Made by a program: the position numbers and the translations under genes. This document shows positions 7,863 through 47,196 of a stretch of DNA of 64,000 nt, one piece after another (position 1 is the stretch's first letter; the number at the start of each line of letters is the position of its first letter). The stretch is from the NCBI RefSeq assembly GCF_032854445.1, contig NC_088305.1, positions 4,381,152-4,445,151 on the forward strand, given 5' to 3'. The notes under the pieces are model-generated. The model worked only from the letters and a program-made list of their open reading frames with translations. It had not been told where the DNA came from and made no database searches. This DNA comes from Liolophura sinensis (lineage: Eukaryota; Mollusca; Polyplacophora; Chitonida; Chitonidae).

Positions 7863-9139
7863 CACTAATACCGTTTTAAGATTACTATATATGTACATGT
7901 ACTACAAAACTAGTCAGTGTGGATACAGGAAGTTTTGTACAAGTCCTTTAACATTTGATTTTTTTAGAAGAAATAATTAGTTAACATATCTGTATGAAAA
8001 ACATGAGCTACTATTTATCCTCAGATCAAATAGATCAACTGAGGCAATAAACACTTTAAGCACTGTATTCCTGCAGATTTTTTTTATGAATGAACACCAT
8101 ACCCATCAAAATATTATCTCCTTCATTACAACTATGTTAAATTTGTAAATTTTGGGCCAATTAACTTTTTGGATGACCAATTTTCCTAATTCTGAAGGAC
8201 ACGACAAGACCAAGATTCCTATCCTGCTGGTGAATGCACTCTAAATTCTATATGAAATCTGACCACTTCTGACAATGATATGTGCACTTTATGTATAGTG
8301 TATCAACAAACGCAAAAATCTTTATAAAAAAAATTAAAAAAGAATGAATATATGAATAAATAAGTGAATAAATATTATGTAAGTAAATAAATAAAAGAAT
8401 GTCAACCTTGCAAAAAACAAAAGCAGCAAACACACTTGTATGTCAGAAGAATATATGTTACACAGGCTTTAATAATTAAGTTTTCATGCCACATGGCATG
8501 CCACTAGCTCACCAACAGCACACTGTTAGCTGACAACACACTAGTAATGTTCTCCTGCCATTAGGATGCAGGTTTACCGCAATGTCTTGTGGATATGTGG
8601 CCGGCTGACTGGCCTGATCTTTCTGCATAGAACCAAAATATGTTAAAGCTTTTTAATTTGGGTGCCATTTAAGTGTCTTAATTTAGGCAAATGTTTTAGT
8701 TTGTCAAGATCTTTCTGTAATCTGGGGAATATCACATCTTCTAGCTTGTTACGATCTTTCTGTAATCTGGAGAATACCTCTATCTCCACAGGTGTACTAA
8801 AACCAAACCCATACGTAAAATACCATATTCCACCTAGATTGATATTTGAAAATGCACTTTCAGAGGCACATACTTTAAGGTATGAAAATAACACTTCTGA
8901 TGCTTAACAATTTAAGTTTATTTGTACCATTACCAGAATTCTGGGCAATTTGTGACAGCTCTATTTTGTGGACCAATGTATGTAATAAAACAGGACTTGT
9001 ACACTGTACATGTATACGAACTGAATCATTCCACAAGATTCACTACAGGCACACTAATGGCACACTACTACAAAGCACCTAGAGATCTTAAAACTTGGCC
9101 TGTATAATAAGGACATCTGACTATAAAAGTATGATTTAC
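7863..9139. other. Intron of the CERKL-like gene
   Basis: This lies downstream of exon 3 of the minus-strand gene. I found no next exon here: the minus strand shows no GGDG-type diacylglycerol-kinase motif. A short imprecise duplication at about 8690-8785 repeats GATCTTTCTGTAATCTGG and leaves an 83-codon open frame (8643-8894 minus) with no recognisable domain. Confidence 0.55.
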
Positions 9140-9271
9140 CCATCAGGTCTCCTTCTATTCCAGCCAGTTTAAATATTGGCATGATATGCGTTTTGTAGAG
9201 ACCTGCTCCCAGTCTTTTTCCTGCATGAGGTTGTAAAATCACCTTCACACGCTTTGGTCTGCTTGTGAAGA
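9140..9271 (-). CDS. CERKL: CERKL-like exon 3 (start of catalytic domain)
   Basis: Acceptor TTTGTTGCAG before TCTTCACAAG, donor GATGG then GTAAAT; 132 nt, phase 1/1. It encodes VFTSRPKRVKVILQPHAG, KRLGAGLYKTHIMPIF and KLAGIEGDLM, the first strand, glycine loop and helix of a diacylglycerol-kinase-type fold. Confidence 0.87.
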
Positions 9272-12200: not shown

Positions 12201-12555
12201 GCGGCTTTCGCAAAGGTCCGGAATCTATACGAATCGTCTCCACATCGGGTAAAGTACTGGACGATGTATTGAATATATCATTCACGGGTGAATGATCTTG
12301 GTATCGTTTATTTCCGTGTGTCCTTTGTCTGGACTTTGGTTTGGGATTCTGGTCATCGGTATCGCGATCTCTTCGTCGCCCAGTTGAACCTTCTGATTTG
12401 CGGCGACCGTGAGGGTTGTCGTTGTTGTTGTTGTTTGTGGTCAGGACTGACGAAAGACTGTTCCTAGTTCGCGGATTTGCAGGCACTGGCACCGGTAATC
12501 CGTCGTCATCGTAGGTGAAATCCTCTAATTGTAAATCATTGGCACGGTTCGCCAT
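9140..12555 (-). CDS. CERKL: Ceramide kinase-like protein, 5' part of gene (exons 1-3)
   Basis: Three exons on the minus strand join in phase: 12555-11904, 10555-10238 and 9271-9140, each ending in phase 1. They give about 367 N-terminal residues. The first ~185 are charged and low-complexity. Then comes a PH-like segment (AMFDIDGEGFDVRLTSTKL, then GDEVIRLKDVYGAKVKY and GICVGLTVFTVVKK), and then the start of a diacylglycerol-kinase catalytic domain (SRPKRVKVILQPHAGKR, ending FKLAGIEGDLM). This order and spacing match vertebrate CERKL, which belongs to the ceramide/sphingosine kinase superfamily; CERKL has no established lipid-kinase product. The start is ATG in ATCATGG; an upstream in-frame TTG is not needed. 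The glycine-loop region is unusual (QPHAGKR where active ceramide kinase has NPFGGKG). Remaining exons are beyond position 1 or in an unseen intron. Ordinary ceramide kinase (CERK) is the alternative. Confidence 0.85.
10238..10555 (-). CDS. CERKL: CERKL-like exon 2
   Basis: Acceptor GGTAG before GAAGCAGGAG, donor GAAGG then GTAAGT. 318 nt in phase 1/1. It starts with a basic stretch (GSRRKNKRKGSG), then the PH-like body with IRLKDVYGAKV and VGLTVFTVVKKDANKLK, and ends RQWVSRIASALK. The match to the corresponding vertebrate CERKL segment (IELKDIF..., GITLFICLKKEQNKLK) is what identifies the gene. Confidence 0.87.
11640..11880 (-). mobile_element. tRNA-like SINE of a second family, in CERKL-like intron 1
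   Basis: Read on the minus strand it begins GGGAGGGAGTTATGGCTAAG, TGGTTAAGATGCC (box A-like) and about 45 bases later TGGATTCAATCC (box B-like), followed by a body ending in CTGGAGCCCAGCCTG. The head resembles a Leu/Ser-type tRNA. Its body differs from the abundant SINE family. No target-site duplication was seen. Confidence 0.6.
11904..12555 (-). CDS. CERKL: CERKL-like exon 1 (first coding exon)
   Basis: ATG at 12555-12553; 652 nt, ending TCAG before the donor GTACAT (phase 1). It encodes an acidic and Ser/Arg/Pro-rich leader with an Asn run (NNNNND) and the first PH-like strand. The donor is weaker than consensus, but the frame closes soon after it and the join to exon 2 is in phase. Confidence 0.82.
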
Positions 12556-14126
12556 GATCAAACCTTAATATTTAAGAAAATTCACCCACGAAATGTCAAG
12601 TTTTGAGCGTAGGGTATGTGTAAAGCGACGCCAGCCATGATGATTTGCTGTCTCGGACTTCTGATTATCGAGCGTTTGTATTGGTTCAAAATAGAACACG
12701 AGCACGCACATGGCTGGTTGCTAGGATACAGCGTACACATTGCTACAACCATCTGACAGTTGACTCAGTCTGCTGTGAAGGATAAGCATACATACATGCT
12801 ATTGATTGTCACGAGATCAATAATTACAGTAATACACCAAAGCGATCAACACAAAAGAGGAGAAATTTTAAGCGACGTGAACATCAATAAAACTCAGCTA
12901 AAAATTGATTGGGTATTTTGGTGCTCATGCACGACTATAGGTTACATGTAAGCCTAGATGTAGGCTACATGTAGCCTACCGGTACACGTGGGCCTAAATG
13001 CCGACTGAAGTACAGGCATACATGTCTATGTCATAAGAAAATCTGGCCTATTATCCAAGTAAACCTATGAACGTTTACAACATCAACCAGTTCACAATAT
13101 TCACGGTTTTCTGGAGACGAAGTCTGTGCACAGAATCGCTCATTAGCAACAATAAATAACTTGATCTATGTTTTTTTTTTCTTTTTTCTTTTTCTTTCTT
13201 TCTTTTTTCTTTTTTTTTTTTTTTTTTTGGCCTACAAATGTACCTCCATCTTTGCCCAATTTAGAATATTTTCATCATTTACTGTCTCCTGGTTTGAACA
13301 TGTTCTCTCCACGATATTGCTTCTGAATATTGCTAAAGAGTCGTTAAGCCACATAGGCCCTGTGCATTCATTCATTCAAGTGATTGGTGTGCATGTACAC
13401 GTACATTTAAGCCTAGGCCTACATGAGTTCCTAGACTGAGCCTAACTGTTCATGCCGTGGATCTTGATGTATAAATGTAGCCATGTTTCTTACAGTACGC
13501 ACTAATTATATCACATAATGATATCGTGCTCTCAATCAGAATTCAGGTATGACTTTTTTTTACGTATTTTTCTGGTTAATGTCGATCTTCATACTGTAAA
13601 TTAATAACACACTCGTTTGAAAGAAAAATTAGGATCTTTGATCCCGAGAGTATTTTTGGCGAGTTATTACTAAGCAACCATCGCTTTTATGGACATATAA
13701 CTTTTATGGGTGATTTGACCGAGTCTTAAACTTCTGATTTGGAAATTTACAGAACTGTGCTGGGATTTTGAAATTTGTAATTTCTCATCGTGCCTCTCTG
13801 GGGCCGATTCTCCGCCTTACCGTACCTCGTCGTTTGTATTACACTCAGTGGGTACCTATATATTCACATGAACAGACTTTCTGTATGCACTTCCATATTC
13901 CCTACCAGCCACTAACCTTCGAGGAAAATTAGGTATTTGTATATACATGTATACAGCAGTGCTATAATGCACTCCAAGGTCTGTTTATAGCAATCTGGTA
14001 TTTGAAATTCGTAGGATATAATCAGGCCTAACGATCGAACGTATGTATTTCACCTGTAACCCTAGATTATTACACTGCTGACCTTCAGCGCGCCCATGTA
14101 GGTTTGTCCAGTGTGAAACTTTGCAT
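12556..14126. other. Intergenic region upstream of the CERKL-like gene
   Basis: Presumably contains the promoter of the minus-strand gene, but no TATA box is evident. A pyrimidine tract with long T runs lies at 13168-13229. No supported gene; the 92-codon frame across the T tract is simple sequence. Confidence 0.5.
12960..12979. repeat. Perfect 20-bp palindrome
   Basis: The arms GTAGGCTACA and TGTAGCCTAC are exact reverse complements with no spacer. Nearby GTAAGCCTAG and GGGCCTAAATG are similar words. Confidence 0.9.
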
Positions 14127-15237: not shown

Positions 15238-16110
15238 ACATTAGCTCTTTATGTAGCGATGGGATGGTGGGATACTCTTTATGTAGCGATGGGATGGTGG
15301 GATACTCTTTATGTAGCGATGGGAGGGTGGGATACTCTTTATGTAGCGATGGGATGGTGGGATACTCTTTATGTAGCGATGGGATGGTGGGATACTCTTT
15401 ATGTAGCGATGGGATGGTGGGATACTCTTTATGTAGCGATGGGAGGGTGGGATACTCTTTATGTAGCGATGGGATGGTGGGATACTCTTTATGTAGTGAT
15501 GGGAGGGTGGGATACTCTTTATGTAGCGATGGGATGGTGGGATACTCTTTATGTAGCGATGGGAGGGTGGGATACTCTTTATGTAGCGATGGGATGGTGG
15601 GATACTCTTTATGTAGCGATGGGAGGGTGGGATACTCTTTATGTAGCGATGGGATGGTGGGATACTCTTTATGTAGCGATGGGAGGGTGGGATACTCTTT
15701 ATGTAGGGATGGGATGGTGGGATACTCTTTATGTAGCAATGGGATGGTGGGATACTCTTTATGTAGCGATGGGATGGTGGGATACTCTTTATGTAGGGAT
15801 GGGAGGGTTGGATACTCTTTATGTAGCGATGGGATGGTGGGATACTCTTTATGTAGCGATGGGATGGTGGGATACTCTTTATGTAGGGATGGGAGGGTTG
15901 GATACTCTTTATGTAGCGATGGGATGGTGGGATACTCTTATGGTAGCGATGGGATGGTGGGATACTTTGCATTTAACCATGGGGTGGTGGTAAACTTCGC
16001 ATGAAGCGATGGGATGGCAGAATGCTCTGCCTATAGCGATGTATAGGATTGTAAGATGGCGGGCTGCTCTGCATGTAGTGATAGGATGGGGGGATCCTCT
16101 GCACGAACGA
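15238..16110. repeat. 30-bp G-rich satellite array
   Basis: About 24 near-perfect 30-bp units (ACTCTTTATGTAGCGATGGG then ATGGTGGGAT) fill 15241-15960, and 5 more decayed units reach about 16110. Units alternate between GGGATGG and GGGAGGG forms over 15421-15720, giving a 60-bp dimer. The plus strand is G-rich. Because 30 is a multiple of three, five or more frames are open on both strands for 200-285 codons; these are not credible genes. Confidence 0.96.
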
Positions 16111-22206: not shown

Positions 22207-22270
22207 ATGGTTTCCTTGCATCTGACTTTGACCTTGCTGATTAACTTCAGTCTGTTACAGTTGGGAAAGG
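22207..22270 (+). CDS. Discoidin-domain gene 1, exon with signal peptide
   Basis: ATG in CAAAATGG, 21 codons plus one base, donor GTAAGT at 22271. The peptide is strongly hydrophobic. The exon probably begins at 22188, after the CCCCAG acceptor, with 19 untranslated bases. Confidence 0.8.
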
Positions 22271-24123
22271 GTAAGTTCAGATTTTATTGTATTTTATAAC
22301 GTATTAGGCTTCACCTAAAACAGTTTGTTACATAATATTTATATTTTAAAAATTTTGACTGTTGTATAAAGATGCATTCTCTAAAGTCTCGTTTACATCT
22401 GCATGTGAAAAGAAGACACACATTATTAACTGTTCTACCTGTAAGTTGATTACAGTAATTCAACGAGATAGTCTTATGCTAGATAGAAATTTGATTCACC
22501 ACATGGTCCACACAGCCCTTTATAGAGAGCGGCCATTTATTTTAGCAGCCCCTGGATCCATCCCCCACCCCCCGATATTCCCGTATGGAAATCGTTACGC
22601 TCTGGAAGCCGATTAAGAACACCATCGCACCATTATAGTGTCGTCTTTCGCCCGATGGAACAAACCGATGGCTGCAAAATACGAAGACATGGAACGACAG
22701 TGCGAAGCGATGGATCGGTGCCGCGAGCAAAGACACAATAGTACGAAGGGATGGATCGGTGCTACGAGCGAAGTCACGATAGTGCGAAGCCATGGGACGA
22801 TACTCGTGCCACAGCTTCTTTCCACCGTTCGACTGACCGTTCCTATCCTGCTATCGCTTCGTCGCTTCATTGCTAAATATGAACTGTAGTTTTGTCGTCT
22901 TTCAGGATTTGATGATTGCAGCAGATCCAATATCGAGGTGATAAGTGGCATCGAGCCCAGTGCGGATCCCATGACGACCATGACAGCCTCCAGCGAGAGG
23001 GATCCGGACCACGGGGCAGACAAAGGCCTGGCCCTCGGAAAGACAGGATGGTCTCCGAGGACAGCTCAGAGGGGTGAATGGCTTGAGGTAGGACAACCCA
23101 CACCAACTATCATAATCGAAATATGAAACAGACTGAACAATTATATATTTACTTAAGTTAACTACGAAAAGTTGATCAAGGAAATGCGTAAAGGGAAATG
23201 CATCGTTACACATTAAGGGCCCAACACATGCAAAATCTTTACTAGTACACGTTGATAGATGTATATTGGCTTTTCATACTTAATAAGACAAAGACATGTT
23301 TACTGGACTATGTGTCTTTAGTGAAAATATTCACCGCATTACTATGTAAACATTTCGCATGTTTACCAAAATAAACACATCTTCATACTTGCTAAACACT
23401 ATGTCTTTATGAATAAACACTATGGCGGTTTAGAAACTGTAGCAGAAATGTGTTTATACAAGAAAGACTAAGTTTAACGTGGGAGGTACTTCGGCATTAA
23501 TAAAGCTTTCCAAAGCCATGCATTCTTTTGTTTCTGCAAGTAACATCTCGTCCGCGTGCTCATAAAACTACACAAGGTGTCCAACTTTGTAGCAGAAAAT
23601 AAAACTTCTACCGCAATTTGGACTTTTGCCCGATTAGTCTACAAGTCTTGATGGTTGGTGAAACCGCAGAAACGGTGACCTTTTCTATACGTACATGATT
23701 AACTTAAATCCAAAGCGAAATGCGCGAAAGCTGGACTTGAGCATTGGTGTCCCAGCAGTATTGAGAAGGAGTAAACTGAGATTTATCCGTTATAAGGTAA
23801 AATATGATTATTTAAAACTAATCACTAAACAATATCTTACCACTATCTCACCATTGGTAATGCATCATTAAATTGTCTGGTAAATATCGGGTAACGTACG
23901 ACATGAAGTACAGTGCAAATATACGGTACTTTTTTACAGGCTGACATTGGGTCATGGGCATATATAAAACAGGTGAGGATCGTAACACGTACACCGGGAC
24001 TGAGAGTGAAAGTGGAGGCATCCATGGATCTACAGGACTGGACATTGGCCGATAAGGTACGTAGGTACATGTAACCTTTGTGTGTATGTATGTGTTTATG
24101 TATGTGTGTATGTGTGTAGGTGT

Positions 24124-24194
<71 letters not shown>

Positions 24195-27100
24195 TGTATG
24201 TATGTATGTATGTATGTCATTGGTGTATGTATGTATATATATCATTGGTGTTTTACGTCGTGCTCAAAAATATTTCACTTGTACGACGAAGTCCAGTATT
24301 ATGGTGGGAGGAAACCAGGCAGAACCCTGGAGAAACCCACGACCATCCGCAAGTTGCTGGTAGATCTTCCCACGTACTGTTCGAGAGGAAGCCAGCATGA
24401 GCTGGACTTGAAAAAAATAGAGACGGTTTTGGTGGGAGGCTCCTAGGTTGTATGTATGTATGTATGCCTGCTTTGGGTTGTACGTCGTACTCTACGATTT
24501 TTGAGTAATATTAGGATTTGAAGTGATTTATTTGATTGAATTTTCACGCCGTGCTCAAGAATGTTTCACTTATACAAAGGTGGCCAGGGGGGCAAAGCTT
24601 GGGGAAATCCGCAGGTAGCTGGCATTCCTCCCCACAGACGACCCGAGTGGAAGTCAACATCAGCTGGACTTGAATCTGCGCATCGAAACAGACATTCGTG
24701 AACCAAGATGAGCGTTCCGGGTCAATAGTCGCAAGGCCAATTCCCAAAACGAGGTTTGACACAAGCTACCAAAGAAATAAGAAAGTATACCAATTTCGAA
24801 ATTAGGCGGCGATTGAGTGAAATCAGTATTCAGATCGTGTGCCGTGCTAGTGTACAAGTTGTCGACCGCATTGGTGAGAGGCTCCTAGGTCATTGGGCCG
24901 CACAAGCACGCTAACCATTTAGCCACGGAGGCCCCGAGGCAGCAACAAGTACCATTAACCGCTGGCCGAAGAGGTCACAGGATCGAATCCAGATACCGGT
25001 GATTCACTGAATATATGTATGTATTAATGTATGTATGCTTGGGGTTTTACTGAACAACTCTGGGGTTCTTTAGGTACCTGAAAGGAGCAGTGGCTTTTAC
25101 ATGCCTCCTTCCGGTTACTCACACTCATATAAGGCGACACCAATTTCATGTTGTGTTTGATGGGCGAGCAGACACTAAAAAATCCAAAACTTAAATAAAA
25201 TTAAATTGAAGATCCACCTTTCCACCATTTTAAAGGCCTAGACCTTTTCGTGATTTTCCTGGTTTTTCTATCATGTAAACATTTAAAAAAAAACTGATGG
25301 AAGTGTCCACATTTCTCACATATTAGATGATTTTTCAGTTTTTTGTTATACCCTCCTTGGACATTGGAAAAAGGTTTATTCTGCACGTTAAACAAAAATA
25401 TGAATTGGTGTGGTCTGAGCCATACTCTCTACAGCGCACGCGTCGCTGTCTACGCTCGTTTTACGTCATATCCACCTGCAACTGACAAGTTTGACAGAGG
25501 TTATCTCACCTAGGTTTAACCTCAGCAGTAATGCCCCGCGCGACAAACATTCATCAATAAAACCCTGTAACTGTCAGACTAATCGTATTGTGCACTTTAT
25601 GCCAAATTTAAATGAATACACATAACAGGCATGATTTGAAAAGAAGCTTGATTTTTTTTTTCGGACACCACTTTTGGCCTTATTTGACCCCATTGACCTT
25701 GGCAATGTTCAAGATTTCTGTACAAAATTAGCAGGTGTGGCAGTTCTGTAAAGCGAGCAAAAAGAGGAAAGCATGCGCTCTAAGGATTGCGTGGGCCCTA
25801 TGCTAATGATCATTGTCGTTATTGTCGTTATAAAACACAGAAGAATTAAATACGTTGAATAAATCAAACATTTACAGATGATCTCTAAAGGAGAATACAT
25901 CAAGGCGGAGTTCAGTCGACCCGTTATGGCGCAATTCGTCCGCGTGACCGTCACCAAGGTGACTCGTGACGTCGAATTGGAAATGATTGTGATTGGCTGT
26001 AAACGACGGCGGGGAGTCGCCGTAGAGCGTAAGTATAAGATGACCTTGGGCATCATCGCGTTTTACCGCTCTTTCCGTTCTGTGCGGAAAGAAGTACGCG
26101 TGGTATGGAAGTGAGTAGTGAGCTAATCACCACGAGTGTAATACCGCAGATCTTAATCTGGCGCCACTTCCACGTAACTTTGTATAAGGACACGTCCAAC
26201 ACGGATTTAGTACACTACATGAGAAACTAATATTAATTACTATGGTACTATAGGGAGCAAGTCCAGAGCAGTGACGAGTGTGATAGTTGGCAAATGATCC
26301 AACGTAACTGGGGGAAATACGGCCCGGGGCCTCAGTGGCTCAGTTGGTTAGCGCGCTAGTGCAGCGCAATGACCCAGGTGCCTATCACCAATGCGCTCGC
26401 TGTGAGTTCAAGTCCAGGTCATGCTGGCTTCCTCTCCGGCCATACGTTGGAAGGCCAGCAACCTGCGGATGGTCGTGGGTTTCCCCCGGTCTCTACCGGG
26501 TTTCCTCTCACCATAATGCTGGCCGTTGTCGTATCAGTGAAATATTCTTCAGAACGGTGTAAAACACAAATCAAATAAATAAATAAAAAAATAAAGAAAT
26601 ACGGCCCCTTGTCAGTTTACCTTAGTTGGGGTTTTATTCTAACTGTTCATGTAAATGCACACATAGTAGCTAATTACACGCCCCCTAGCATCATGTCTTA
26701 AGCAGAATCAGGTAAAAAACAGCAGTGATGTTAAATGCAATTTATTTGACATCACCTTTCCAGAATCCCTCAGAATACTGTGTAGTCACCACATTTAATA
26801 TATTTATTTACTTATTTGATTGGTGCTTTACGCCGTACTCAAACATATTTCACTTATACGATGGCGGCACGCATTATGGTGGGAGGAAACAGGGCAGAGC
26901 CCGGGGGAAACCCACGACCATCCGCATGTTGCTGACAGACCCATTTAATATACAATAACATTAAATCATTGAAATTCTGCATATCAGTTAACTGGTAAAT
27001 ATAATTAACGTGTGATGACAGTGACTTCTGGTAAATGGTCACACGTAACTGATGAAATACATTCTCTAGTGAACTCGCCTCATTTAGGGTTTTATTCTAA

Positions 27101-27826
27101 CCGTTCATGTAATTGCTTAAATAGTAGCCAATTACACTCATCTAGCACCATGGCTTAAGCACAATTAGTTTTTCAAAAATGCGGTGATCTGATCGCAATT
27201 TATTAGACGAAAAGTGTAGAATTAGCTGTGTTATCACATTTAACATACAATCACATTAAACATCGCAAAGTCCTGCAGATGCGGGAATACAATATAGTTA
27301 AAGACTTACATGTACATGTATACAGCATAGAGGGTAAAGCCAGAGCAGTGACCACACTGTGATAACTGACAAATGGTCACTCGTAACGGGTGAAATACAG
27401 CGTAAAAAATGAAATACAGTCAATTTACCTCAGTTGGGTATTTCTTCATGTATGGCTGGCGACTTGGTGACCGACTCAGGTCGCTGGTTCGGAACCCGCA
27501 GTGGTCTCAGTCAATATTCGGCAGTTATAACGATAATATTGTTACGTATACTTCCATCGGCGCGTTTCACTAAACGTCCAAAATACAGCAAATTTCTTAA
27601 GTCTCTGAATTGTTTTTTGCCTAAATCTAACATGGAATATCTTAAAAACCAGAAGCTGAAGTCAAACACCACTCAAGTATGATAAAAATGTACCTCAAGC
27701 AAACCACATTTGCTTAGAAAGTTTTGTGAAACCGGGATGTGGTTTTAAAATTCAGTTTATTTCTTTGTTATACCTTTTACTTGTATTTCAGATCGGCTGT
27801 TTTCCGAGTACAGCGGTGGTCGCTAA
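22207..27826 (+). CDS. Secreted single F5/8 type C (discoidin) domain protein, copy 1
   Basis: Five exons join in phase: 22207-22270, 22906-23087, 23940-24056, 25878-26028 and 27792-27826, encoding about 182 residues. Residues 1-20 (MVSLHLTLTLLINFSLLQLG) form a signal peptide. One F5/8 type C domain spans about 26-162: bracketing Cys at 26 and 162, the core TASSERDPDHGADKG, the WSP...GEWLE signature, ADIGSW and VRIVTR strands, and FVRVTV...ELEMIVIGC at the end. The family binds glycans or anionic lipids outside the cell. Nothing else follows but a basic tail (KRRR) and a short C-terminus. Exon number, phases (1,0,0,1) and the sizes of exons 3 (117 nt) and 4 (151 nt) equal those of the neighbour at 29610-35563, so the two are tandem duplicates. 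The last exon is the least certain. Confidence 0.85.
22700..22803. repeat. 41-bp tandem repeat (2.5 copies) in an intron
   Basis: TGCGAAGCGATGGATCGGTG then CCGCGAGCAAAGACACAATAG repeats with CpG-rich variants; lies 100 bases before domain exon A of gene 1. Confidence 0.7.
22906..23087 (+). CDS. Discoidin-domain gene 1, domain exon A
   Basis: Acceptor GTCTTTCAG, donor GAG then GTAGGA. It holds the first Cys and the MTASSERDPDHGADKG and GKTGWSP...GEWLE motifs typical of the N-terminal half of F5/8 type C domains. Confidence 0.88.
23940..24056 (+). CDS. Discoidin-domain gene 1, domain exon B
   Basis: Acceptor TTTTTACAG, donor AAG then GTACGT; 39 codons in phase 0/0: ADIGSWAYIKQVRIVTR, then VKVEASMDLQDWTLADK. 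This is the DLG..V..V strand and the S.D...W motif of the family. Confidence 0.88.
24075..24238. repeat. (TG)n and (TATG)n microsatellites
   Basis: A TG run (about 24120-24160) is followed by about 13 TATG units (to 24217), directly after domain exon B of gene 1. Confidence 0.9.
24239..24415 (-). mobile_element. SINE, 5'-truncated, next to a (TATG)n microsatellite
   Basis: CATTGGTGTTTTACGTCGTG, TATTATGGTGGGAGGAAACC, CCACGACCATCCGCAAGTTG and AGGAAGCCAGCATGAGCTGG match the abundant family. The usual (TTTA)n tail is replaced by the TATG microsatellite. Confidence 0.87.
24533..24938 (-). mobile_element. Diverged SINE with an internal insertion
   Basis: The tail side (TTTTCACGCCGTGCTCAAGA), body and tRNA-like head (GGTGAGAGGCTCCTAGGTCA ... 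AGCCACGGAGGCCCC) are present, but about 170 unrelated bases (about 24680-24850) separate head and body. An old element. Confidence 0.75.
25878..26028 (+). CDS. Discoidin-domain gene 1, domain exon C
   Basis: Acceptor TTTACAG, donor GAGC then GTAAGT. It encodes GEYIKAEFSRPVMAQFVRVT ... ELEMIVIGC, the C-terminal strands and final Cys, followed by KRRRGVAVE. Confidence 0.88.
26326..26595 (+). mobile_element. Full-length SINE with perfect 12-bp target-site duplication, nested
   Basis: Starts GGGGCCTCAGTGGCTCAGTT, with GGTTAGCGCGC (box A region), GTGAGTTCAAGTCC (box B), the body, and AATCAAATAAATAAATAAAA. GAAATACGGCCC is repeated exactly at 26314-26325 and 26596-26607. It interrupts the tandem dispersed element in intron 4 of gene 1. 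Confidence 0.93.
26803..26941 (-). mobile_element. 5'-truncated SINE with 11-bp target-site duplication, nested
   Basis: (TTTA)n, TTTGATTGGTGCTTTACGCC and TGGTGGGAGGAAACAGGGCA, ending at GCTGACAGACC. CATTTAATATA flanks it (26792-26802 and 26942-26952). The neighbouring copy of the host element has this site uninterrupted, as CACATTTAACATACAATCAC. Confidence 0.9.
27447..27530 (+). mobile_element. Fragment of a tRNA-like SINE
   Basis: GACCGACTCAGGTCGCTGGT, TCGGAACCCGCAGTGGTCTC (box B-like GGTTCGGAACCC) matches the reversed element at 45290-45425. Confidence 0.5.
27792..27826 (+). CDS. Discoidin-domain gene 1, candidate last exon
   Basis: Acceptor CTTGTATTTCAG with a good pyrimidine tract. In the required phase it reads HRLFSEYSGGR then TAA. 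Gene 2 likewise ends with a very short coding piece, which supports the choice. No clear AATAAA was found close downstream. Confidence 0.5.
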
Positions 27827-29480
27827 TCAAGGATTGTCATTACGCCGCATATTACATTATTGTTTGCACATATTCTGAAATACAAAGTACACTTTTGCCT
27901 CCTCTGATTACCTTTATTAGCTTTATTGTCTCTAACCCAGTCTGACAGTAACCAAACATGAGCAGCTCCGCAGGGCCTGCCCTATCGGGTACATGTAGTA
28001 AAGAAAGAATAAGCCAGTTTGGACTTATCTCATATCAGAAATATGATATCAGCGCTAATGTTTCGACGAAAGATGCTAAAATTGGGAACGTTTATAGCAA
28101 GTCTGTTTCTGAGATAAATGTGTCAAATTTTAACTTTGGATATTAGATTTGATATTTTTACGTCGCTTTGTGGAATGCGACCAGCTACGTGCATGTGTGG
28201 TTTCTTCCTCTACCCGGTTTCCTCTGCCTAGTTTCCTCCATCCAAAAAAGAAAGAAAAACAATACAGCTTGACTGAGCTGTAGCATGCGTGAGTAATGTT
28301 ATTCCTGCAACTACAGTTAACTGTAATGTCCGACTGACAAAACTTCCTGAAACACGGGCGAATTCTGCGTGGGCTAAAAACCACCATGTGTCGCCTGGGA
28401 TCGTGTTTTATGAAAAAAGCTAAACATAATGCTCATGGATATCTCGCTCCTGCAGTTATTGTTTTAATTAAAGTTGGGTCCAGCTGGACTGATTAACAAT
28501 CGCAATATGTTATTGTTTTAATATTCACACCTCAATCTTTAGATTTTACACTGCATATTCACTTTACTTCCCTTTGTGTATGTAGTCGATCGAAAAAGAT
28601 TCAAGTGTTCTGAAACATCCGCAGTATTAAATGTGGGAATGGACTTGCTATCCCTAAGCTATGTTTTTAAATATGTTAAGTTCTGTGTTAAATTCTTTAG
28701 CACCTTGGTACTTCTCAATGTACTAGTGGATGTATGAGGTTCAGCACGCGTGTCCACCACCTTTATTTCCGGAGACACTTCCTTGTATATGGACATATAT
28801 CATTTTGAGGTTACACACTACTGATGACGTCTCTAAGTTTTCTGTACGAGTCAGCCTTGCAGGCTCGGCATATCCCCCGCTTCACACGTGGAATAGGAGA
28901 ATGCCCAGCATTTTAGGGGTCACTGGGGTCATTCTCACTCGCTCATTCATCCCGACTTCCATCTTCATCTGGGCTCTTCCCAGCTGAGCTCATCACCACA
29001 GCATTCCGGGTATGATGATGATTAATTAAATATTCAAGGTGAAAAAAAATAATGCTGTGACATTTAAGCGACAAATTACGGGATTTCTGTGAGTGAGTTT
29101 TTATTAAGATATACAAGGGAGTGCTCAAGCTTAATGAACATGTCGGACAACATACCCCCAGGCTATAGTTGTTGTTTTACACTGTGACGTAACTGGATTT
29201 GCTAAAAAAAAAAAACAGAAAAAAACTGTAAAACATAAAAAAAATATATATATATATTTGTTAAAATGCGCTAGATCGCGAGGGCGTAGTTCATTGTTAC
29301 AGAAGACGAAGCTGGTTGATTGGGATTGTTTCTACACCTTCTAGAATCTTGATAGGAGAGGCTTCTGTTGTAATACCTCCAGTAAAGTGTCAGAGAGCAA
29401 AGGTCAAACGTCATCGCATCGTCTATGCGGCGAGCCAATAAGGTCTCTCCTAGCTTGATTCACGCGAACACACACTTGAC
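27827..29480. other. Intergenic region between the two discoidin-domain genes
   Basis: Contains the presumed 3' UTR of gene 1 at its left end. No further gene is supported; short open frames at 27958-28146 and 28730-28987 have no recognisable domain. An AT microsatellite lies at about 29240-29260. Confidence 0.5.
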
Positions 29481-29502
29481 CTGCTTCCGGTCAGAGTTTG
29501 CG

Positions 29503-29508
29503 TATAAG
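29503..29508 (+). promoter_or_regulatory. Candidate TATA box of discoidin-domain gene 2
   Basis: TATAAG in GCGTATAAGTATGG, 102 bases upstream of the start codon; a transcript start near 29533 (CACTGAG) would give a 5' UTR of about 75 bases. Prediction only. Confidence 0.35.
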
Positions 29509-29609
29509 TATGGATGGAGCTGATACCTTTCACTGAGAAAACGTATAATTTGTATGTGTCTGGTAACGCGGTATTTCAACTTTTGAAGCACGTCATCCTT
29601 GATATCAGC

Positions 29610-29676
29610 ATGAATCTTGCATCCATGAGTATGTTTGTCCTAATGACTCTGGCGTGTTCGCTACACTCTGTTTTAG
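29610..29676 (+). CDS. Discoidin-domain gene 2, exon with signal peptide
   Basis: ATG in CAGCATGA, 22 codons plus one base, donor TTAG then GTAAGT. Met codons at 6 and 8 are alternatives, but the first gives the better signal peptide. Confidence 0.8.
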
Positions 29677-30167
29677 GTAAGTAAAATTCCGTATCTTAAT
29701 CGCTGATCACTGTTTAATCCATAATTGCATATGTTTAAGAATAATAATTTGAATAAAGAGAATTCGATTAAGTTTATAAGATTAAATTGTGCAACTTGCT
29801 CAAGGTCAGTGGTTACCCTGATCACCCTCATTCCCTCCATCAACAAAGCTGGAAACCAGTCGACAATTAGATGTGAAGTTGCAATATATTTTTCCGATGC
29901 TAGATCTAGGCATTGGGCCGATCTGTGTTTCCATGACAGTCTTGATGACATTTATGACACATTTTTGTGTAGGATTTATTTATTTATTAATTTGATTGGT
30001 GTTTTACGCTGTACTCACGAATATTTCCCTATACGACGGCAGCCAGCATTATGGTGGGAGGAAATCGGGGAGAGACCATCTGCAGGCTGCTGACAGACCT
30101 TCCCACTTACGGCCTGAGAGAAAGTGTGAGTAGGAAATTCTAGTCTTGTTAAGCCGTTCATGTAGAT

Positions 30168-30206
<39 letters not shown>

Positions 30207-33200
30207 TTTGATTGGTGTTTTACGCCGTACTTAAGAATATTTCACTAATACCACAGCGACCAGAATTATGGTGGGCGTGTTCATGTAGATTTCTTTTGAT
30301 TCATACGTCATGAACCTCTGAAAATTTTAGTTTAGCAAGGTACGGGAGAACGAGGGAACTCAGCTATGAAGGGAAAATGAGAACGTCTATTTCCAAACAT
30401 TTTTTGCTGGTATCTGACCAATCAGAAACGACATTGGGCAATTCAATCTTGAAATCATAGAGCGTGCACAAGACGTGATCTTTCACCGGTATTGTAAGCG
30501 TTTGAGAAAAAAAGACGGACGTGTAAAATGTCAGGGTCACTCAACTCAGCATAGGTAGGTACAAGTTTTATGAATTAAACGTTCCGTCCTATTACAGCGA
30601 ACACAGATAAATGTCGGCGGTCGGAACTAAAGATCCTGAACGGCATGGAGACGTTACCAGACCCTGGCACCCTGATGCTGGCATCCAGCGAGAGGGACAG
30701 GCGTCACTCCGCGACGCACGGTCTGGCTTTCGGGAATACCGGCTGGTCACCCAGGCAGTGGAGACGAGGGGAGTGGCTGGAGGTAGGTGATCAATCGCGG
30801 CACTGGTGGGATTGGGGTGTGTGTGTGAGGGGGGGTGGGGGGGTGGGGGGGGGCGGTGGTTAGTGAAGCGGTGGTATGTGACAAACGTGGACCAGAACGG
30901 AAATCAGGCATTTTTACATTCTGAAAACTAAAATGTTATGTATGCCTTTAATAATGTTAAATCAAACGGCGTGACACTGATGGCGGAGGAAACTCATTCA
31001 ATATTCTTAAAAGTCTTAGATATCTACAACTTTGCAACATGCTCACACAAAAAGCAATCATTAATTCTATATTCATGTAATATTAACACTTCTAGATGAC
31101 GATATCAAGAAACATTAATCTATTTTGTTTTTCTAAAGTGGAATTATACTTTATTTGAGTGTTTTTTAAATATATTTGATTGATAGTTAACACGATACGA
31201 AAGAATTTTTCAGTTATACGAGGGCATCACGTTTTTATGGGTTGAGGCAACTGGAGTGCCCGGCGTAAACCACCGACCTTTGACAGGTTACTGACAAACT
31301 TTTCCATGTGGGACATACTAATTTGCTCACCGTATTGGTGGAAGACAAATAGTCTTCAACGAACATTGGACTGCGCAAAGCGATCTCGTGCGAGGACGTC
31401 ATCCACCGTTTATTGTCACCGCGACCCCGCAAGCATTAAGGGCGTGTGTCTTACTTAATGTAATAACTTGTCTTCACAAAGGCATTCACATTAGTTGAAT
31501 AAACAGCGCTTATTTATTATTAGATTTAAAACCAGAATACGAAAAATGTATTGGTCCTTGAAAATTTAAGTTTCCTTTGCCTTAGATGGACATTTCTTTT
31601 GAAACATTGAGCCGAATTAACAACTATGCACTCAACAGATACTGTGGCTCGTTGTAGTATAACCACGTATTTTTGTGGTTGTAAATACAAATCTGCAGTT
31701 TTTTTGAAAGTCTTCTCTTAAACATAATGTATTATAATGTGGCCTTTTCGGACTATATTGTGACCAATAACGCTGCATCAGGTTTCTGCCACTTCTAATT
31801 CACATGATATATATACATAAACAGATATGAATGCTTTCCCTGAAGGAACGATAAAAGGAGCGGTTACCAGCAAAAATATAGTTGGTATCCTATTTATATC
31901 TGCTTGGTCCCATTCGATCACCGTTGTATCCGTTGTTTAAAGCATTTTAATCGGTTGAAAAAATTCTAAAAGAAATAACTGGAACAAAAAAATAACTGGA
32001 ACTACTTTCATTTCTTTCAACTAACACTAGCATATAGCTAACTGAGGGGTATTAATCTCTCACATTTTCACACACAAAAAAAAATCACGTAATCAAGGGA
32101 GACAACTCCTTCGCGACACGAACCAATGTCATTATTGCTCGCCATGGCCTCCTCTGCCAACAATACAGTTCACCTCCTGGCTATCTTTTACGTAGAGACT
32201 TAAACTGAACATCGGTTTGAACTGGTTCACTTAACACCTATACTGAGACATGCCTGGACATGTTGCCACAATCTCCTCTAAATATTTCACTATATGCTGT
32301 TATTGCTTTCTTCTAAATCGCTCCAGTTCACTCTATCTGAAGATGACTTACAATTCCCCTGAGATCTCTTCGGTTTTCTTCACACTTGTAGAATTAGAGA
32401 TTATGTTGAAAATAATGAGTAATCACCATTGGAATGATTTTGTGCCCTTTGTATGTCATCGGCATAATATGCCAGAGGGCTGTCGCTAGGCTGTCTGCCC
32501 GTCGGTCCGTCCGTCAAGATGACATTTTCCCAGTAAAAGCGACAGCACATGGGATAGGAATATCAAGTGTGGTTTGTGTACATGTGTATGTTCAGATTAG
32601 GATGAAATAGATTCCATATTAAACCGGAGGGACTACCGTGGCTCAGTTGGTTAGCGCGCTAGCGCAGCGTAATGACCCAGGAGCTTCTCACCAATGCCGT
32701 CGCTGTGAGTTCACGTCCAGGTCAGGCTAGTGTCCTCTCCAGCCGTATGTGGGGAAGGTCTGTCAGCAACCTACGGGCTCAGCCCGGTTTCCTCCCACCA
32801 TAATGCTGGGCGCCGTCGTATAAGTGAAATATTCTTGAGTACGGGATAAAACACCAATCAAATAAATAAATAAATATTAAACCGGTGTCATTTCGATTAA
32901 GCCAAACCACATTAGCAACAAGTAGAAACTTCAAATCTAATTTGTATGTTCACTTTGGATTAAGCTAGATTTCTCTTTCAACTGATGTCGTTTCGATTGA
33001 GTTTCTGGTTTCCATGACAACCAACCTTAATATGGCACAGAAATATGGCGTCATGCCGTGCTACATAAAGTAGGGAGTCACTTATATGTTTAGCCAGGGG
33101 TAAATTAAATTTCCTCTCGAACTGGGTCATTTCGACAAAATGTGTGGTTGCCAAGGCCACCAAGTCTAAAATGATATGCATCGCATGATGAAGCCCTAAC

Positions 33201-35563
33201 GTATGAGGTAACAACTACAGGGTCGGTTTATGTTGTCCTTTCGTGCTGGAGTACATTTTTTCTCTGTATAATATCCCGTTCTAAACCAACTGAGGGCCGA
33301 AGTTCATTGCTTTCATGTTAGTATTTGAACCACATCTTTAGTCATGCCAAGCTCACTGGCAAAGTGACTTTGTATAACACATTTTGCCTCTGTTGTAAAG
33401 CAAGAATTAAATGAACTTTACATCCCAGACGAAAAAACAGTTTATACAAAAGAATTCTGTACAGACATAAAGATATATTTAGTGTTAGATGCCCATGTAA
33501 ACCCATTTCTTGTTAACAATCAAGGCAGAAAAGAAAAACATTTTTTTATTGAGGCTGAATTTACCTCCAATGATTAAGTATGCAAATATATACACTGCAG
33601 TTGAATGGCGTTTAGCAAGCACTTGATTGATGAAATTGGTTTTTAAAGTTGAGAACGGAACAAGAGCGCTAATATACTGGATCAGATGAATTCTTTTAAT
33701 TATATAAACATAAAATCTTGACTTATAAATGTGGAATTGTTATTATGTCATGGCGAACAATTACGAACTATATCCCAAAAAATATTTTTTTTTTATTTTC
33801 ACGACCAGATCTTGATAACGAACAGCCAGTCGTGATGTGGCTCGTCTGGTATGATCATGTGCTCTTCTTGATTTGTGGCCTACATATCGTAATACAGACA
33901 CGTTTAGTGGGGCGTGTACTATTAATAACACGTCGCTATAGATGTCTCTGTATAACAAGCAGACTTTTTGTTTACTTTGAATAGGCATAAGTATAAAGCA
34001 ACACACGTCTATGAAGAAAGTATTGTGTTTCAGGCAGACCTCGGTTCATGGGCCCTTGTGAGTCAGGTGAGGGTGTACCTGCTAACCCCAGGTGTCAAGG
34101 TCAAGGTTGAAGCTGGTCTTGACCCTGCTACATGGGAAGAGTCTTCTATGGTAAGGAGCAATTACAAATGTTACTATTTTGTATTTTATAAGATTTTAGG
34201 TTTTAATGGATTTTATGCTTTTATGTCACTGCGAGGTGCAGGAAGAGATGTCCTCACCCAGGTTCAAGACACATACCCACCCATGCACAAGTACATGTAA
34301 AAGTACATATGTGCGCGATGAGTGACATGTTTCCAAAATCTAGGTTAACTTTTTACGGTTAACGCCCACTTCTTTGAAATATATGCAAAAATTAGGTCAA
34401 AAATTACAGCTGTGGCACAGGTATCAGTTTATGACTCAGACTTCCTGGTCTACTGATTGACACCTGTTCAAAAAGCTCACAATACGTAGCCACTGAATTG
34501 CGAGAAATCTTATAAAATGCAAGTAGTACGATTGTAATTATGTAAATTTTTGGAAACTTTCGTGGTTCATTTGACATGATTTAAATTCGTCGCGTCGGTT
34601 GACAAAATTTAATGTAGTGGCAATATAACAGTTTAGGAAACAAACAGAAAAATCAGTCCATCAATTAATTTCTCAATCAATCGAAAACAGGTGTACCGTC
34701 AGGGTCGTGTGATAAAGGCTGAGTTCGACCCACCGGTGTTGTCCCAGTACGTCAGGGTGACGGTCACAGACTTCTACGACGACGTCGAGCTGGAAATGAT
34801 GGCTATAGGATGTCCCAGGCGACGGACGGTGGCTGAAGAAAGTAAGACACATATTGCTTCCTACAAATTCTAATCGTTTGTGGAAACCCCACAACCATTG
34901 GATATGACAACGACGTGATACGTCTTAGATGAATCGTAATGGTTGCTAATAACGTTATGGAATGCGTTTTACGGCCAGGATGCAGGTTTCTGTAAGATTA
35001 AATATTTATTCATGTATTTTACTCAATTGGTGTTTTACGCCGTACTCAAGAATATTTCACTTATACAACGGTCATCAGAATTATGGTGGAAAGAAACCGG
35101 ACAGAGCCCAGGAGAAACGTACGACAATCCGCAGGTTGCTGAGAGACCTTCCCACGGATGACCGGAGAGGAAGCCAGCATGAGCTGCACTTGAACTCATG
35201 TCAACCGCATGTGTGGGAGGCCCCTGCATGATTGCGCCGCGCTGGCACGCTGATCACTCGGCCACGGAGGCTCGTGGTCAATTTAAAGGAAACTTTAAAA
35301 TAGATGAATGCGACGATTGCTGTGAAATACTTAATTTTCGCGTGGAACTAATTTTCGCGGATTTCGCGGTGAGTAATTTACCGCGAAAAATAATTCCAGC
35401 GCAAAAAATATAAGATATAAAAATATAAAATATAGTAATGTGTATTTCTTAAGAGTGAATTGTAGGAGATCTACATAATACTGCTAAGATACTCGTACAG
35501 TTGTGAGGATTTCAATACTAAGGTGTTGTTTCTGTTTCTTCTGTTTCAGACTTGCTGTATTAG
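29610..35563 (+). CDS. Secreted single F5/8 type C (discoidin) domain protein, copy 2
   Basis: Five exons join in phase: 29610-29676, 30598-30782, 34034-34150, 34691-34841 and 35550-35563, encoding about 177 residues. A signal peptide (MNLASMSMFVLMTLACSLHS) is followed by one F5/8 type C domain, about residues 28-164. It has Cys 28, the core MLASSERDRRHSATHG, NTGWSP...GEWLE, ADLGSW, VKVEAGLDPATW, YVRVTV and ELEMMAIGC. The protein ends RRRTVAEENLLY. The domain fills the mature protein, so it is a small soluble discoidin-like lectin or adhesion factor; its ligand cannot be inferred. Shared architecture and motifs with the gene 1.8 kb upstream show tandem duplication. Most residues of the GLA...TGWSP and GEWLE blocks are shared, while the signal peptides and C-termini differ completely. 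Confidence 0.9.
29975..30118 (-). mobile_element. 5'-truncated SINE
   Basis: TTTGATTGGTGTTTTACGCT, CAGCATTATGGTGGGAGG and TTCCCACTTACGGCC match the abundant family. Imperfect flanking repeats (TGTGTAGGA and TGTGAGTAGGA) may be the target-site duplication. Confidence 0.85.
30170..30278 (-). mobile_element. 5'-truncated SINE with 14-bp target-site duplication
   Basis: (TTTA)n, then TTGATTGGTGTTTTACGCCG through GAATTATGGTGGGC. GTTCATGTAGATTT occurs exactly at 30156-30169 and 30279-30292. Confidence 0.9.
30598..30782 (+). CDS. Discoidin-domain gene 2, domain exon A
   Basis: Acceptor CTATTACAG, donor GAG then GTAGGT. It encodes NTDKCRRSELKILNG, LPDPGTLMLASSERD and GLAFGNTGWSPRQWRRGEWL. Confidence 0.9.
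30808..30860 (+). repeat. G-rich tract
   Basis: Runs of G (up to 8) separated by single T or C: GAGGGGGGGTGGGGGGGTGG and on. It lies 25 bases after the donor of domain exon A of gene 2 and meets the G-quadruplex pattern on the coding strand. Confidence 0.85.
31160..31330 (-). mobile_element. Old, diverged SINE copy
   Basis: TATTTGATTGATAGTTAACA, GAAAGAATTTTTCAGTTATA and TGCCCGGCGTAAACCACCG align with the abundant family at low identity. Confidence 0.6.
32628..32873 (+). mobile_element. Near full-length SINE with 12-bp target-site duplication
   Basis: CCGTGGCTCAGTTGGTTAGC, GTGAGTTCACGTCC (box B), CATAATGCTGGGCGCCGTCG and CAATCAAATAAATAAATAA. ATATTAAACCGG flanks it at 32616-32627 and 32874-32885. 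In intron 2 of discoidin-domain gene 2. Confidence 0.93.
34034..34150 (+). CDS. Discoidin-domain gene 2, domain exon B
   Basis: Acceptor TGTGTTTCAG, donor ATG then GTAAGG; 39 codons, phase 0/0: ADLGSWALVSQVRVYLL and VKVEAGLDPATWEESSM. Same length as its counterpart in gene 1. Confidence 0.9.
34691..34841 (+). CDS. Discoidin-domain gene 2, domain exon C
   Basis: Acceptor GAAAACAG (weak pyrimidine tract), donor GAAA then GTAAGA; 151 nt as in gene 1. It encodes VIKAEFDPPVLSQYVRVTVT and VELEMMAIGC. Confidence 0.9.
35008..35278 (-). mobile_element. Full-length SINE (minus strand)
   Basis: CAATTGGTGTTTTACGCCGT through CTCGGCCACGGAGGC, with body and tRNA-like head present. It lies in the last intron of discoidin-domain gene 2. 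No clear target-site duplication. Confidence 0.88.
35550..35563 (+). CDS. Discoidin-domain gene 2, last coding exon
   Basis: Acceptor TTCTTCTGTTTCAG with a strong pyrimidine tract; in phase it reads NLLY then TAG. A poly(A) signal lies 160 bases downstream. Confidence 0.72.
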
Positions 35564-35722: not shown

Positions 35723-35728
35723 AATAAA
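35723..35728 (+). terminator. Poly(A) signal of discoidin-domain gene 2
   Basis: AATAAA in GATAAATAAAGTTT, 160 bases after the stop codon, within plausible 3' UTR distance. Confidence 0.6.
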
Positions 35729-37299: not shown

Positions 37300-38625
37300 T
37301 CAACCACAAAGAGTGAATCCAAAGTTATAAAACGCCGAAGGGGTGGAGAGAAGACGACAAAACCACATACTGTACCAGTACTTTACAAGTTTTCTACCAC
37401 AAACACCTGAAGCCTTTTAGGCATAAAATAGTCGAAAGTTAAAAAGGCGGAAGGAGTGGATAAAGGGTGCCAAAACAGCGTACTGTACCAGTACTTTAGA
37501 ATTTTTCTACCACAAACACCTGGAGCCTTTTAAGCATAAAATAGTCGAAAGTTAAAAAGGCCGAAAGAGTGGATAAAGAGTGCCAAAACAGCGTACTGTG
37601 CCAGTACTTTACAATTTTTCTACCACAAACACCTGAAGCCTTTCAAGCATAAAATAATCGAAAGTTATAAAAGGCGGAAGGAGTGGATAAAGGGTGCCAA
37701 GACAGCGTACTGTACCAGTACTTTACAAGTTTTCTACCACAAACACATGAAGCCTTTCAAGCATAAAATAATCGAAAGTTATAAAAGGCGGAAGGAGTGG
37801 ATAAAGGGTGCCAAGACAGCGTACTGTACCAGTACTTTACAATTTTTCTACCACAAACACCTGGAGCCTTTCAAGCATAAAATAATCGAAAGTTATAAAA
37901 GGCGGAAGGAGTGGATAAAGGGTGCCAAAACAGCGTACTGTACCAGTACTTTACAAGTTTTCTACTACAAACACCTGAAGCCTTTCAAGCATAAAATAAT
38001 CGAAAGTTATAAAAGGCGGAAGGAGTGGATAAAGGGTGCCAAAACAGCGTACTGTACCAGTACTTTACAAGTTTTCTACCACAAACACTTGAAGCCTTTC
38101 AAGCATAAAATAATCGAAAGTTATAAAAGGCGGAAGGAGTGGATAAAGGGTGCCAAAACAGCGTACTGTACCAGTACTTTACAAGTTTTCTACCACAAAC
38201 ACATGAAGCCTTTCAAGCATAAAATAATCGAAAGTTATAAAAGGCGGAAGGAGTGGATAAAGGGTGCCAAGACAGCGTACTGTACCAGTGCTTTACAATT
38301 TTTCTACCACAAACACCTGGAGCCTTTCAAGCATAAAATAATCGAAAGTTATAAAAGGCGGAAGGAGTGGATAAAGGGTGCCAAGACAGCGTACTGTACC
38401 AGTACTTTACAAGTTTTCTACCACAAACACCTGAAGCCTTTCAAGCATAAAATAATCGAAAGTTATAAAAGGCGGAAGGAGTGGATAAAGGGTGCCAAGA
38501 CAGCGTACTGTACCAGTACTTTACAATTTTTCTACCACAAACACCTGGAGCCCTTTTACAGCAAAAAATAATCGAAAGTTATAAAAGGCGGAAGGAGTGG
38601 ATAAAGGATGACAAAACATCATACA
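37300..38625 (+). repeat. 114-bp tandem array (about 11 copies) with an open 274-codon frame
   Basis: The unit is 114 bp (starts at 37747, 37861, 37975 and on). Earlier copies at 37407, 37520 and 37633 are spaced 113 bp and carry frame breaks. From 37747 to 38571 every unit reads in one frame as 38 residues: CCTTTCAAGCATAAAATAAT gives PFKHKIIESY, then KRRKEWIKGAKTAYCTS and TLQVFYHKHLK. Differences between copies are few and mostly at five fixed sites, both silent and replacing. The frame begins with an ATG that is itself a Leu-to-Met variant of the unit. No signal peptide or known domain is seen, and there are no splice or promoter signs, so I treat it as a satellite. A repeat protein is not excluded. 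Confidence 0.9.
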
Positions 38626-44200: not shown

Positions 44201-47196
44201 GAGCTGAATTTAATTTTCTTGACAAGCCACATGTCACTAAACGTCGGAAAAAAAATTTTTTTTTTCTGAAACACAGCAGTGCCTACCTGTCCGCATCGTT
44301 GGTAGAACGAAGAGACGCCTTGCTCACTTGTCTAGGAGTGTCTGCGGAGAAAGTGGTTCGTCGGTGTCTTTTGACGGAGGCCTGTGTAAGAGGCTCAAAA
44401 CTTGCGCGATAGACGTTTCCAGTAATGGTGTACTCTTTGGGAAAGGTCATACTGTTGTCTCCTCCACCTCTATTAGTTAAATAAGCAAAATAAATAAATA
44501 AAAAACCAAGTGTTTTGGTGAAGTGATTTTTCACCTAAGTTGGAGTGTATAATATTCATATCTGTGCGTAATAAAGGCATTTCAGCTAATTACAGTTCAT
44601 CAGTGTACAGCTTGACTGTGGCGACTTTGCTCCTGCACAAGATTCCTTTTATCACTTGAGCTCTCTTTCAGAACTTTTCAATTCTTATAAAGTGATACTA
44701 TTTTTGATTTTCTCTCTACCATTGGTATGGCAAGAAAGCTGTGATATTAAACTACCGTCTGTGTTCGTTATGTGACTTCTGATATCCTTTATTGACTGAA
44801 TAGTAAATGAATTATCCGTAGTAGATAGACTACTTGACGTTTTATTGTCGCGATAAAACTGAAATATTGTTGAAAGCGACGTTAAAACTTTCACTCACTC
44901 ACTCACTTATCAATGTACAGAAAATTGGCTTAAACGAATTCCACAGGTGAAACGTTGAATTCAAGATTTTATTCATCTTTAGTGATCAAATGTCATAAAT
45001 GAGTAAAGGGAATTATCAAAAGAACACGTTTATTAAAGCAGCTATCTAGTAAGGAAAGAATGTATCCTCATAACTCACATATTAACTAGAGGTTTAAAGA
45101 ATGTGTAATGGTTAATGACGGAAGAAAATACTAAAATACAAATAAGAACTTGGTTACCGTAGCAACCGGGTGAAGTCAGGACATGAATCATACAATCTAC
45201 ACAGGCCTAACCAATAGGTATAGATGTCATTTAGAAAGTGGATTAAGTAACAGTATTATCGTTAATAGGGATTACACTTTCTGAATATAGCACAGATTCT
45301 AGTGCTGAAATTTGGCTGAGACCATTGCGGGTTTCGAGCCAGCGACCTCAGAGTCAGGCACCTAACCGCCAGCAATACATGTCAACATGTCTAGACCACT
45401 CGACCAACAGGCCTTCCACAAAAATGGAAGGTAGTTGACCGGTAGACTTTACAGCGAACATGTATTACCCCTCTGATGATCACAAACGACGTCACTCCCT
45501 TAGATAAATATATCAGATAGGTATAGATGTCATTTAGAAAGTGGATTAAGTAACAGTATTAAGAGAAACCGGATAGAGATCGGAAAAAAATATGTATAAG
45601 TTATTTTGTCTCGTTACACAAAAAGATTTCCTGATTTCGAATTTGAATTAATTTGTTTGATCTTATCAATACCATACCATCCATATTAAAACCGTATCGC
45701 CACCCCCACCCAGCGATATAATAATGACAGCCGAAGGTCTGGACACACCACTTTTGCCAAAAGTATCTACCAGCCTAAAATTAAAAACACGTATAGCTCA
45801 AAGTCTCTGATTGTAATAGCACTGAGATAAAGATATGCGGGTTTACACGTGCTTATAATCACTGAGATTGGTTACTGGTTGGTTGTTATGTAAACCACAG
45901 AATTAGACACACACACATATAGGGACTGATCGCCGTATGCATGAAGATTTCATAAATTCACGAGAGGCCATATTTGATCGGTTACTTGTGACCATTTGTC
46001 AAATATCCCACTGTTGTCACTGCTCTTCATTCGATGGGTTACTTGTGACCATTTGTCAACTATCCCACTGTTGTCACTGCTCTTCATTCGATGGGTTACT
46101 TGTGACCATTTGTCAATTATCCCACTGTTGTAACGGCTCTTCATTCGATGGGTAACTTGTGACCATTTGTCAATTATCCCACTGTTGTCACTGCTCTTCA
46201 TTCGATGGGTTACTTGTGACCATTTGTCAATTATCCGACTGTTGTCACTGCTCTTCATTCGATGGGTTAGTTGTGACCATTTGTCAATTATCCCACTGTT
46301 GTCACTGCTCTTCATTCGATGGGTTAGTTGTGACCATTTGTCAATTATCCCACTGTTGTCCCTGCTCTTCATTCGATGGGTTACTTGTTACCATTTGTCA
46401 ATTATCCCACTGTCTTCACAGCTCTTGATTTGATCGGTTACTTGTGACCAATTGTCAATTATCCCACTGTTTTCACTGCTCTTCATTCGATGGGTTACTT
46501 GGGACCATTTGTCAATTATCCCACTGTTGTAACAGCTCTTCATTCGATGGGTAACTTGTGACCATTTGTCAATTATCCGACTGTTGTCACTGCTCTTCAT
46601 TCGATGGGTTACTTGTTACCATTTGTCAATTATCCGACTGTTGTCACTGCTCTTCATTCGATGGGTTACTTGTGACCATTTGTCAATTATCCCACTGTTG
46701 TCACAACTCTGGATTTGATCGGTTACTTGTGACCATTTGTTAATTACCCCACTGTTGTCACTGCACTTCATTCGATGGGTTACTTGGGACCATTTGTCAA
46801 TTATCCCACTGTTGTAACGGCTCCTCATTCGATGGGTTACTTGTGACCAATTATCAATTATCCCACTGTTGTCACAGCTCTTGATTTGATCGGTTACTTG
46901 TGACCATTTGTCAATTATCCCACTGTTGTCACTGCTCTTGATTTGATCGGTTAGTTGTCACGATTTGCCAATTACCCGACTGTTGTCACAGCTCTTGATT
47001 TACTACCCATCATGTATTTTTATTATCTCATAGGACTTGGATGTCTTACTTGCTTTTGTTTCTCAATTTAATACCTGTACTTGCACACGGAGAGAAACGT
47101 TTATTTCAACAAATTCAATTAAGTTAACCAAAGTGTATTCCCTCAGTGTATATGCCTAACGCTTCTATATATCCATTTGAGGGCCTTTAATAATTC

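Follow-up and report, generated by a model that had tools for sequence, protein, structure and literature searches.

Secreted proteins that consist mainly of a single discoidin (F5/8 type C) domain are already known, namely retinoschisin and the salivary proteins of leeches. In the matched passages on retinoschisin (RS1), the protein is secreted and has a leader, one discoidin domain closed by a cysteine pair, and a short C-terminal piece. The leech salivary F5/8C proteins are invertebrate, secreted and carry one or several discoidin domains, according to the passage available from that study, and its authors note that proteins of this kind seem to function as lectins that bind galactose. A passage on a mussel transcriptome counts 42 sequences with this domain, and its authors did not consider the evidence sufficient to class these as lectins. 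A passage on the Manila clam reports that expression of a gene called Discoidin-2 decreased in response to two microbial stimuli. The proteins described here are likened to the leech proteins by description and to the clam gene by name, in neither case by sequence. Among the publications listed on these subjects, none was seen to describe a gene pair like the one reported below.

The likeness to RS1 extends to all the features named above, with secretion and the closing of the cysteine pair predicted for the proteins reported here. RS1 also has an Rs1 domain, which is absent from the pair. In the same passages, C110 and W112 of RS1 lie in spike 2, and C142 and W147 lie in spike 3. The pair has none of the cysteines that hold the RS1 octamer or form the C110–C142 bond between spikes 2 and 3. 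The closing pair spans 157 residues in RS1 (C63–C219) and 137 residues in both proteins here.

The window, that is, the whole stretch of 64,000 nucleotides that was analysed, contains two five-exon genes on the plus strand, gene 1 at 22207–27826 and gene 2 at 29610–35563. At a probability of about 70%, we read them as old tandem duplicates of one gene, each copy giving an extracellular one-domain discoidin protein with a predicted role in adhesion or recognition. The exon borders were predicted from the splice-site consensus, the phase and the comparison of the two genes. All eight introns are GT-AG, with phases 1,0,0,1 in both genes, and the predicted spliced products have 182 residues (gene 1) and 177 residues (gene 2). 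The preliminary description had proposed a tandem pair within exactly these outer coordinates, and its five coding exons per gene with identical phases were recovered. The inner exons of equal length that it had called B (117 nt) and C (151 nt) correspond to coding exons 3 and 4, which we name C and D.

Exon A of gene 1 (22207–22270, 64 nt) was assigned by splicing and hydropathy and contains the start codon and the hydrophobic leader. It is followed by exon B (22906–23087, 182 nt; splicing and Pfam) with the first part of the F5/8 type C domain and the first bracketing cysteine, exon C (23940–24056, 117 nt; splicing and comparison with gene 2) with the middle of the domain, and exon D (25878–26028, 151 nt; splicing and comparison) with the end of the domain, the last cysteine and RRR. 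Exon E (27792–27826, 35 nt) encodes a short tail and the stop codon. In gene 2, the start codon and the leader are in exon A (29610–29676, 67 nt; splicing and hydropathy). The first part of the domain is encoded by exon B (30598–30782, 185 nt), supported by splicing, Pfam, tblastn and shuffled controls. Splicing, tblastn and shuffles also identify exon C (34034–34150, 117 nt) with the middle of the domain and exon D (34691–34841, 151 nt) with its end, the last cysteine and RRR. Exon E (35550–35563, 14 nt) again holds a short tail and the stop codon. The last exons are the weakest part of both models, as they are placed by acceptor and phase only.

Gene 1 has an in-frame stop codon, TGA at 22189, six codons ahead of its start. 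The nearest upstream in-frame stop of gene 2 is at 29505, and an additional in-frame ATG lies at 29514, 32 codons before the chosen start, with no stop in between. The start of gene 2 is therefore less certain than that of gene 1. It is possible that gene 2 has a longer N-terminus beginning at 29514, which would bury the leader. By eye, a TATAAG is present at about 29503, just before this ATG.

The preliminary description had called for a profile search with the F5/8 type C model. It turned out that both proteins score above the Pfam gathering score of PF00754, which is 28.2 bits: gene 1 reaches 44 bits (E 3e-11) and gene 2 reaches 32 bits (E 1.5e-7). PF00754 is the only Pfam family above the cut-off in either protein. 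The family F5_F8_type_C_2 stays below its cut-off of 27.8 bits, with 23.5 and 22.9 bits, and NCBIfam gave no match near any cut-off for these proteins. A profile made from the two sequences found 25 sequences in the PDB at E ≤ 0.01, 18 of neuropilin-1 and 7 of neuropilin-2, with a best E of 4.4e-5. The best match is the b1 domain of neuropilin-1 (PDB 1kex and others), and the first part, through GW[ST]P...EW, aligns with it with a one-residue difference. Neuropilin is a multi-domain receptor. Its b1 domain has TQG and an Arg near the last cysteine, and both are missing in the proteins of gene 1 and gene 2. Searched alone against solved structures, gene 2 was weakly matched; its best single-sequence match was to the C domains of factor V (E 0.0011 for the whole sequence and E 1.8 for the best single stretch), mostly across the final 34 residues, FDPP..QYVRV...GC. 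The last motif is LRLEL.GC in factor V and LEM..IGC here, and factor V is a large protein, unlike these small ones.

The domain is bracketed by the cysteines C26 and C162 in gene 1 and C28 and C164 in gene 2, at a distance of 137 residues in each case, both cysteines counted. According to a passage on RS1, such a pair closes its discoidin domain. The two cysteines sit where other discoidin domains have their closing pair, and a disulphide bond between them is predicted from the sequence.

The two proteins are 50% identical (87 of 175 residues). Identity is 34/60, 19/39 and 30/50 in the three domain exons and 3/22 in the leader exons, which agrees with the divergence of the signal peptides noted in the preliminary description. 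Searched by tblastn against the gene 2 region, the gene 1 peptides of these domain exons gave 73.2, 47.4 and 61.6 bits. In 200 dinucleotide-preserving shuffles, the best scores were 21.2, 20.4 and 21.6 bits, and any match at all was obtained in 190, 194 and 192 of the shuffles, respectively. The similarity of the exons is thus far beyond chance. Of the 143 mature-part codons compared between the genes, 57 have a difference at the first position, 38 at the second and 96 at the third, as is typical of coding sequence that has been preserved. The NG86 dN is 0.43. Synonymous change is saturated, so no dS is given, and the coding constraint therefore rests on the codon positions. At the nucleotide level (blastn, E 1e-3), the gene regions share 19 pieces, of which 18 are intronic in both genes and one is part of exon B; there is no other nucleotide similarity between them. 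Since this similarity is limited to repeats and part of exon B, the duplication is old. A recent duplication was set aside, as the blastn pieces are part of exon B and what looks by eye like copies of an intronic repeat. Tandem duplication is the simple reading because the order, direction and intron phases of the exons are the same in both genes.

A third copy was not found in the 64-kb window, where the best tblastn match outside the exons of the two genes had an E of 0.32 or more. In a collection of bacterial and archaeal genomes, 150 stretches fitted the search pattern and none was confirmed as a relative; in viral contigs, the numbers were 147 and none. Neither collection is meant for animal genomes.

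The most hydrophobic 11-residue stretch lies at residues 2–12 in gene 1 and 8–18 in gene 2. After residue 30, the 19-residue hydropathy means are at most 0.88 and 0.99, respectively, and because they stay this low there appears to be no further membrane span. Secretion of both proteins is likely, judging from hydropathy. Splicing, Pfam, alignment and hydropathy together support well the description of the locus as a tandem pair of one-domain F5/8C genes with N-terminal hydrophobic leaders. With assumed cleavage points, the mature chain has 158 residues and a pI of 8.62 in gene 1, and 154 residues and a pI of 5.76 in gene 2. No N-glycosylation motif is present in either assumed mature chain, and past the leader each protein contains only two cysteines. 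The last cysteine is followed by xRRR in both copies. A proprotein-convertase site at this place was considered and rejected, as RxxR was not found there in either protein. Elsewhere, RxxR occurs in gene 2 as RDRR at residues 55–58 and at two other places inside the domain, and it does not occur in gene 1.

These features suggest the following scheme. Each gene consists of a leader exon resembling a signal peptide, a three-exon F5/8 type C module between phase-1 introns, and a tiny tail exon. If expressed as predicted, the product would be extracellular, have a mass of about 17.5 kDa and fold into a single beta-barrel closed by a disulphide. The loops at one end of the barrel would most likely bind a glycan, matrix or membrane ligand, and the protein would thereby act in recognition or adhesion. 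Since removal of the leader leaves no cysteines other than the bracketing pair, the protein is probably monovalent. The copies probably differ in ligand, because their leaders, tails and net charge have diverged. Most likely, they are paralogous soluble adhesion or recognition proteins. The preliminary description had suggested, as an inference, lectins of immunity, gamete recognition or shell matrix; an immune role may be considered in view of the leech and clam studies, and the sequences favour none of these three roles over the others.

It is also conceivable, and in our estimate unlikely, that the proteins have a role in shell or another secreted matrix or adhesive and not in immunity or gamete recognition. 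A passage on a sea-star footprint protein reports an F5/8 type C domain in it, and the basic RRR patch after the last cysteine of both copies could hold acidic polymers. Against this, no matching protein was seen among the shell-related publications listed.

A further alternative is that the exons belong to a larger transcript, in particular one in which exon D of gene 1 (phase 1) is spliced to exon B of gene 2, skipping exon E of gene 1 and exon A of gene 2. This would give a two-domain protein. The genes are on the same strand, 1,783 bases apart, the phases fit, and the frame is kept at the junction of 26028 to 30598. In both genes, the trio of domain exons (B–D) is flanked on both sides by phase-1 introns, and a class 1-1 module is a unit of exon shuffling in animals according to the matched part of PMC8001218, a text without the word discoidin. 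However, both genes begin with an ATG and a hydrophobic leader of their own and end in a separate stop-bearing exon, and gene 2 has an AATAAA on the plus strand at 35723–35728, a candidate polyadenylation signal. From the stop codon of gene 1 to 29600, AATAAA is absent and only ATTAAA is present, at 28467, 28626 and 29025. On balance, we regard this larger transcript as rather improbable, and two separate genes with separate products remain our preferred reading.

The two proteins could also be F-type (fucose-binding) lectins, like oyster sperm bindin, since the general fold is the same and, in the matched passages, some authors use PF00754 for both groups. The F-type motif is given as H-X24-R-X-D-X4-(R/K) in the matched part of PMC5712786, with the remark that some members depart from it. 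Both the complete motif and its half R-X-D-X4-(R/K) are absent from both proteins, so this assignment was set aside as very improbable. Equally improbable is that one copy is a decaying pseudogene, more likely gene 2 with its lower Pfam score (32 against 44 bits), as frames, splice sites and the cysteine pair are intact in both genes and the differences between them are, despite saturated third positions, mainly of the coding type.

The surroundings of the pair were also surveyed. On the minus strand, two ORFs (9054–9374 and 10194–10595) look by eye like parts of a lipid kinase of the ceramide or sphingosine kinase type; neither passed a Pfam cut-off, and the PDB search with the first gave four weak matches, to sphingosine kinase 1 only (E 0.083–0.14). 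An ORF of 281 residues from stop to stop (11719–12564, minus strand) looks like an animal coding exon and matched no Pfam family at E ≤ 1. Of the 50 neighbouring ORFs listed, 10 were scanned against Pfam, and none was above the cut-off. Rfam at its gathering scores and ARAGORN found nothing over the window. The window is rich in minisatellites (53 Tandem Repeats Finder rows), for example at 1–1906, 2376–3701, 6686–7866, 15245–16017, 37316–38618 and 45972–47000, and the 114-base array at 37316–38618 holds an open frame of 343 residues. A dispersed repeat is present in both orientations at about 24230, 26340, 26830, 29990, 30200, 32640, 35020 and 48900. Some copies have ATTT tails, and it is probably a SINE. 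By eye, the 18 intronic blastn pieces look like one dispersed repeat, and the similarity between the introns of the two genes is due to it.

The domain itself is short. In the alignment with neuropilin-1, 128 profile positions face 146 residues, i.e., 18 fewer than in b1. Eight of the missing residues (three gaps) fall after the VRI/VRV strand, nine (three gaps) between the next Trp and the KAEF strand, and one earlier. By analogy with RS1, we tentatively place the first group of gaps at spike 3 and the second in the hairpin after it. Two PROSITE-like signature patterns of the F5/8 type C domain match the neuropilin-1 control and neither of the two proteins; such patterns are no requirement for membership in Pfam PF00754. 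Where neuropilin-1 and factor V have an Arg in the last motif, both copies have Glu. As this Glu and the short domain occur in both copies, they are not an error of one gene model. The short loops and the Glu may change ligand binding.

Taken together, these features allow a tentative and rather doubtful proposal, namely that the pair represents a subfamily, so far undescribed, of secreted discoidin proteins with a single domain and short loops. In its members, spike 3 and the next hairpin would be reduced, and Glu would take the place of the usual Arg close to the last cysteine. Binding would be expected through the first two spikes and the fixed RRR patch, not through a classical three-spike pocket, and the phase 1-1 module may be spliced between the genes to give one- and two-domain forms. 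The short loops and the altered signature could make a new subfamily if relatives share them. In other respects, the pair is an unremarkable case of tandem duplication, of a gene for a probably secreted recognition protein whose domain, judging from the passage cited above, occurs in large numbers in at least one mussel. Should relatives also have the short-loop form, it would represent a minimal discoidin domain of natural origin and would help to test which loops ligand binding requires.
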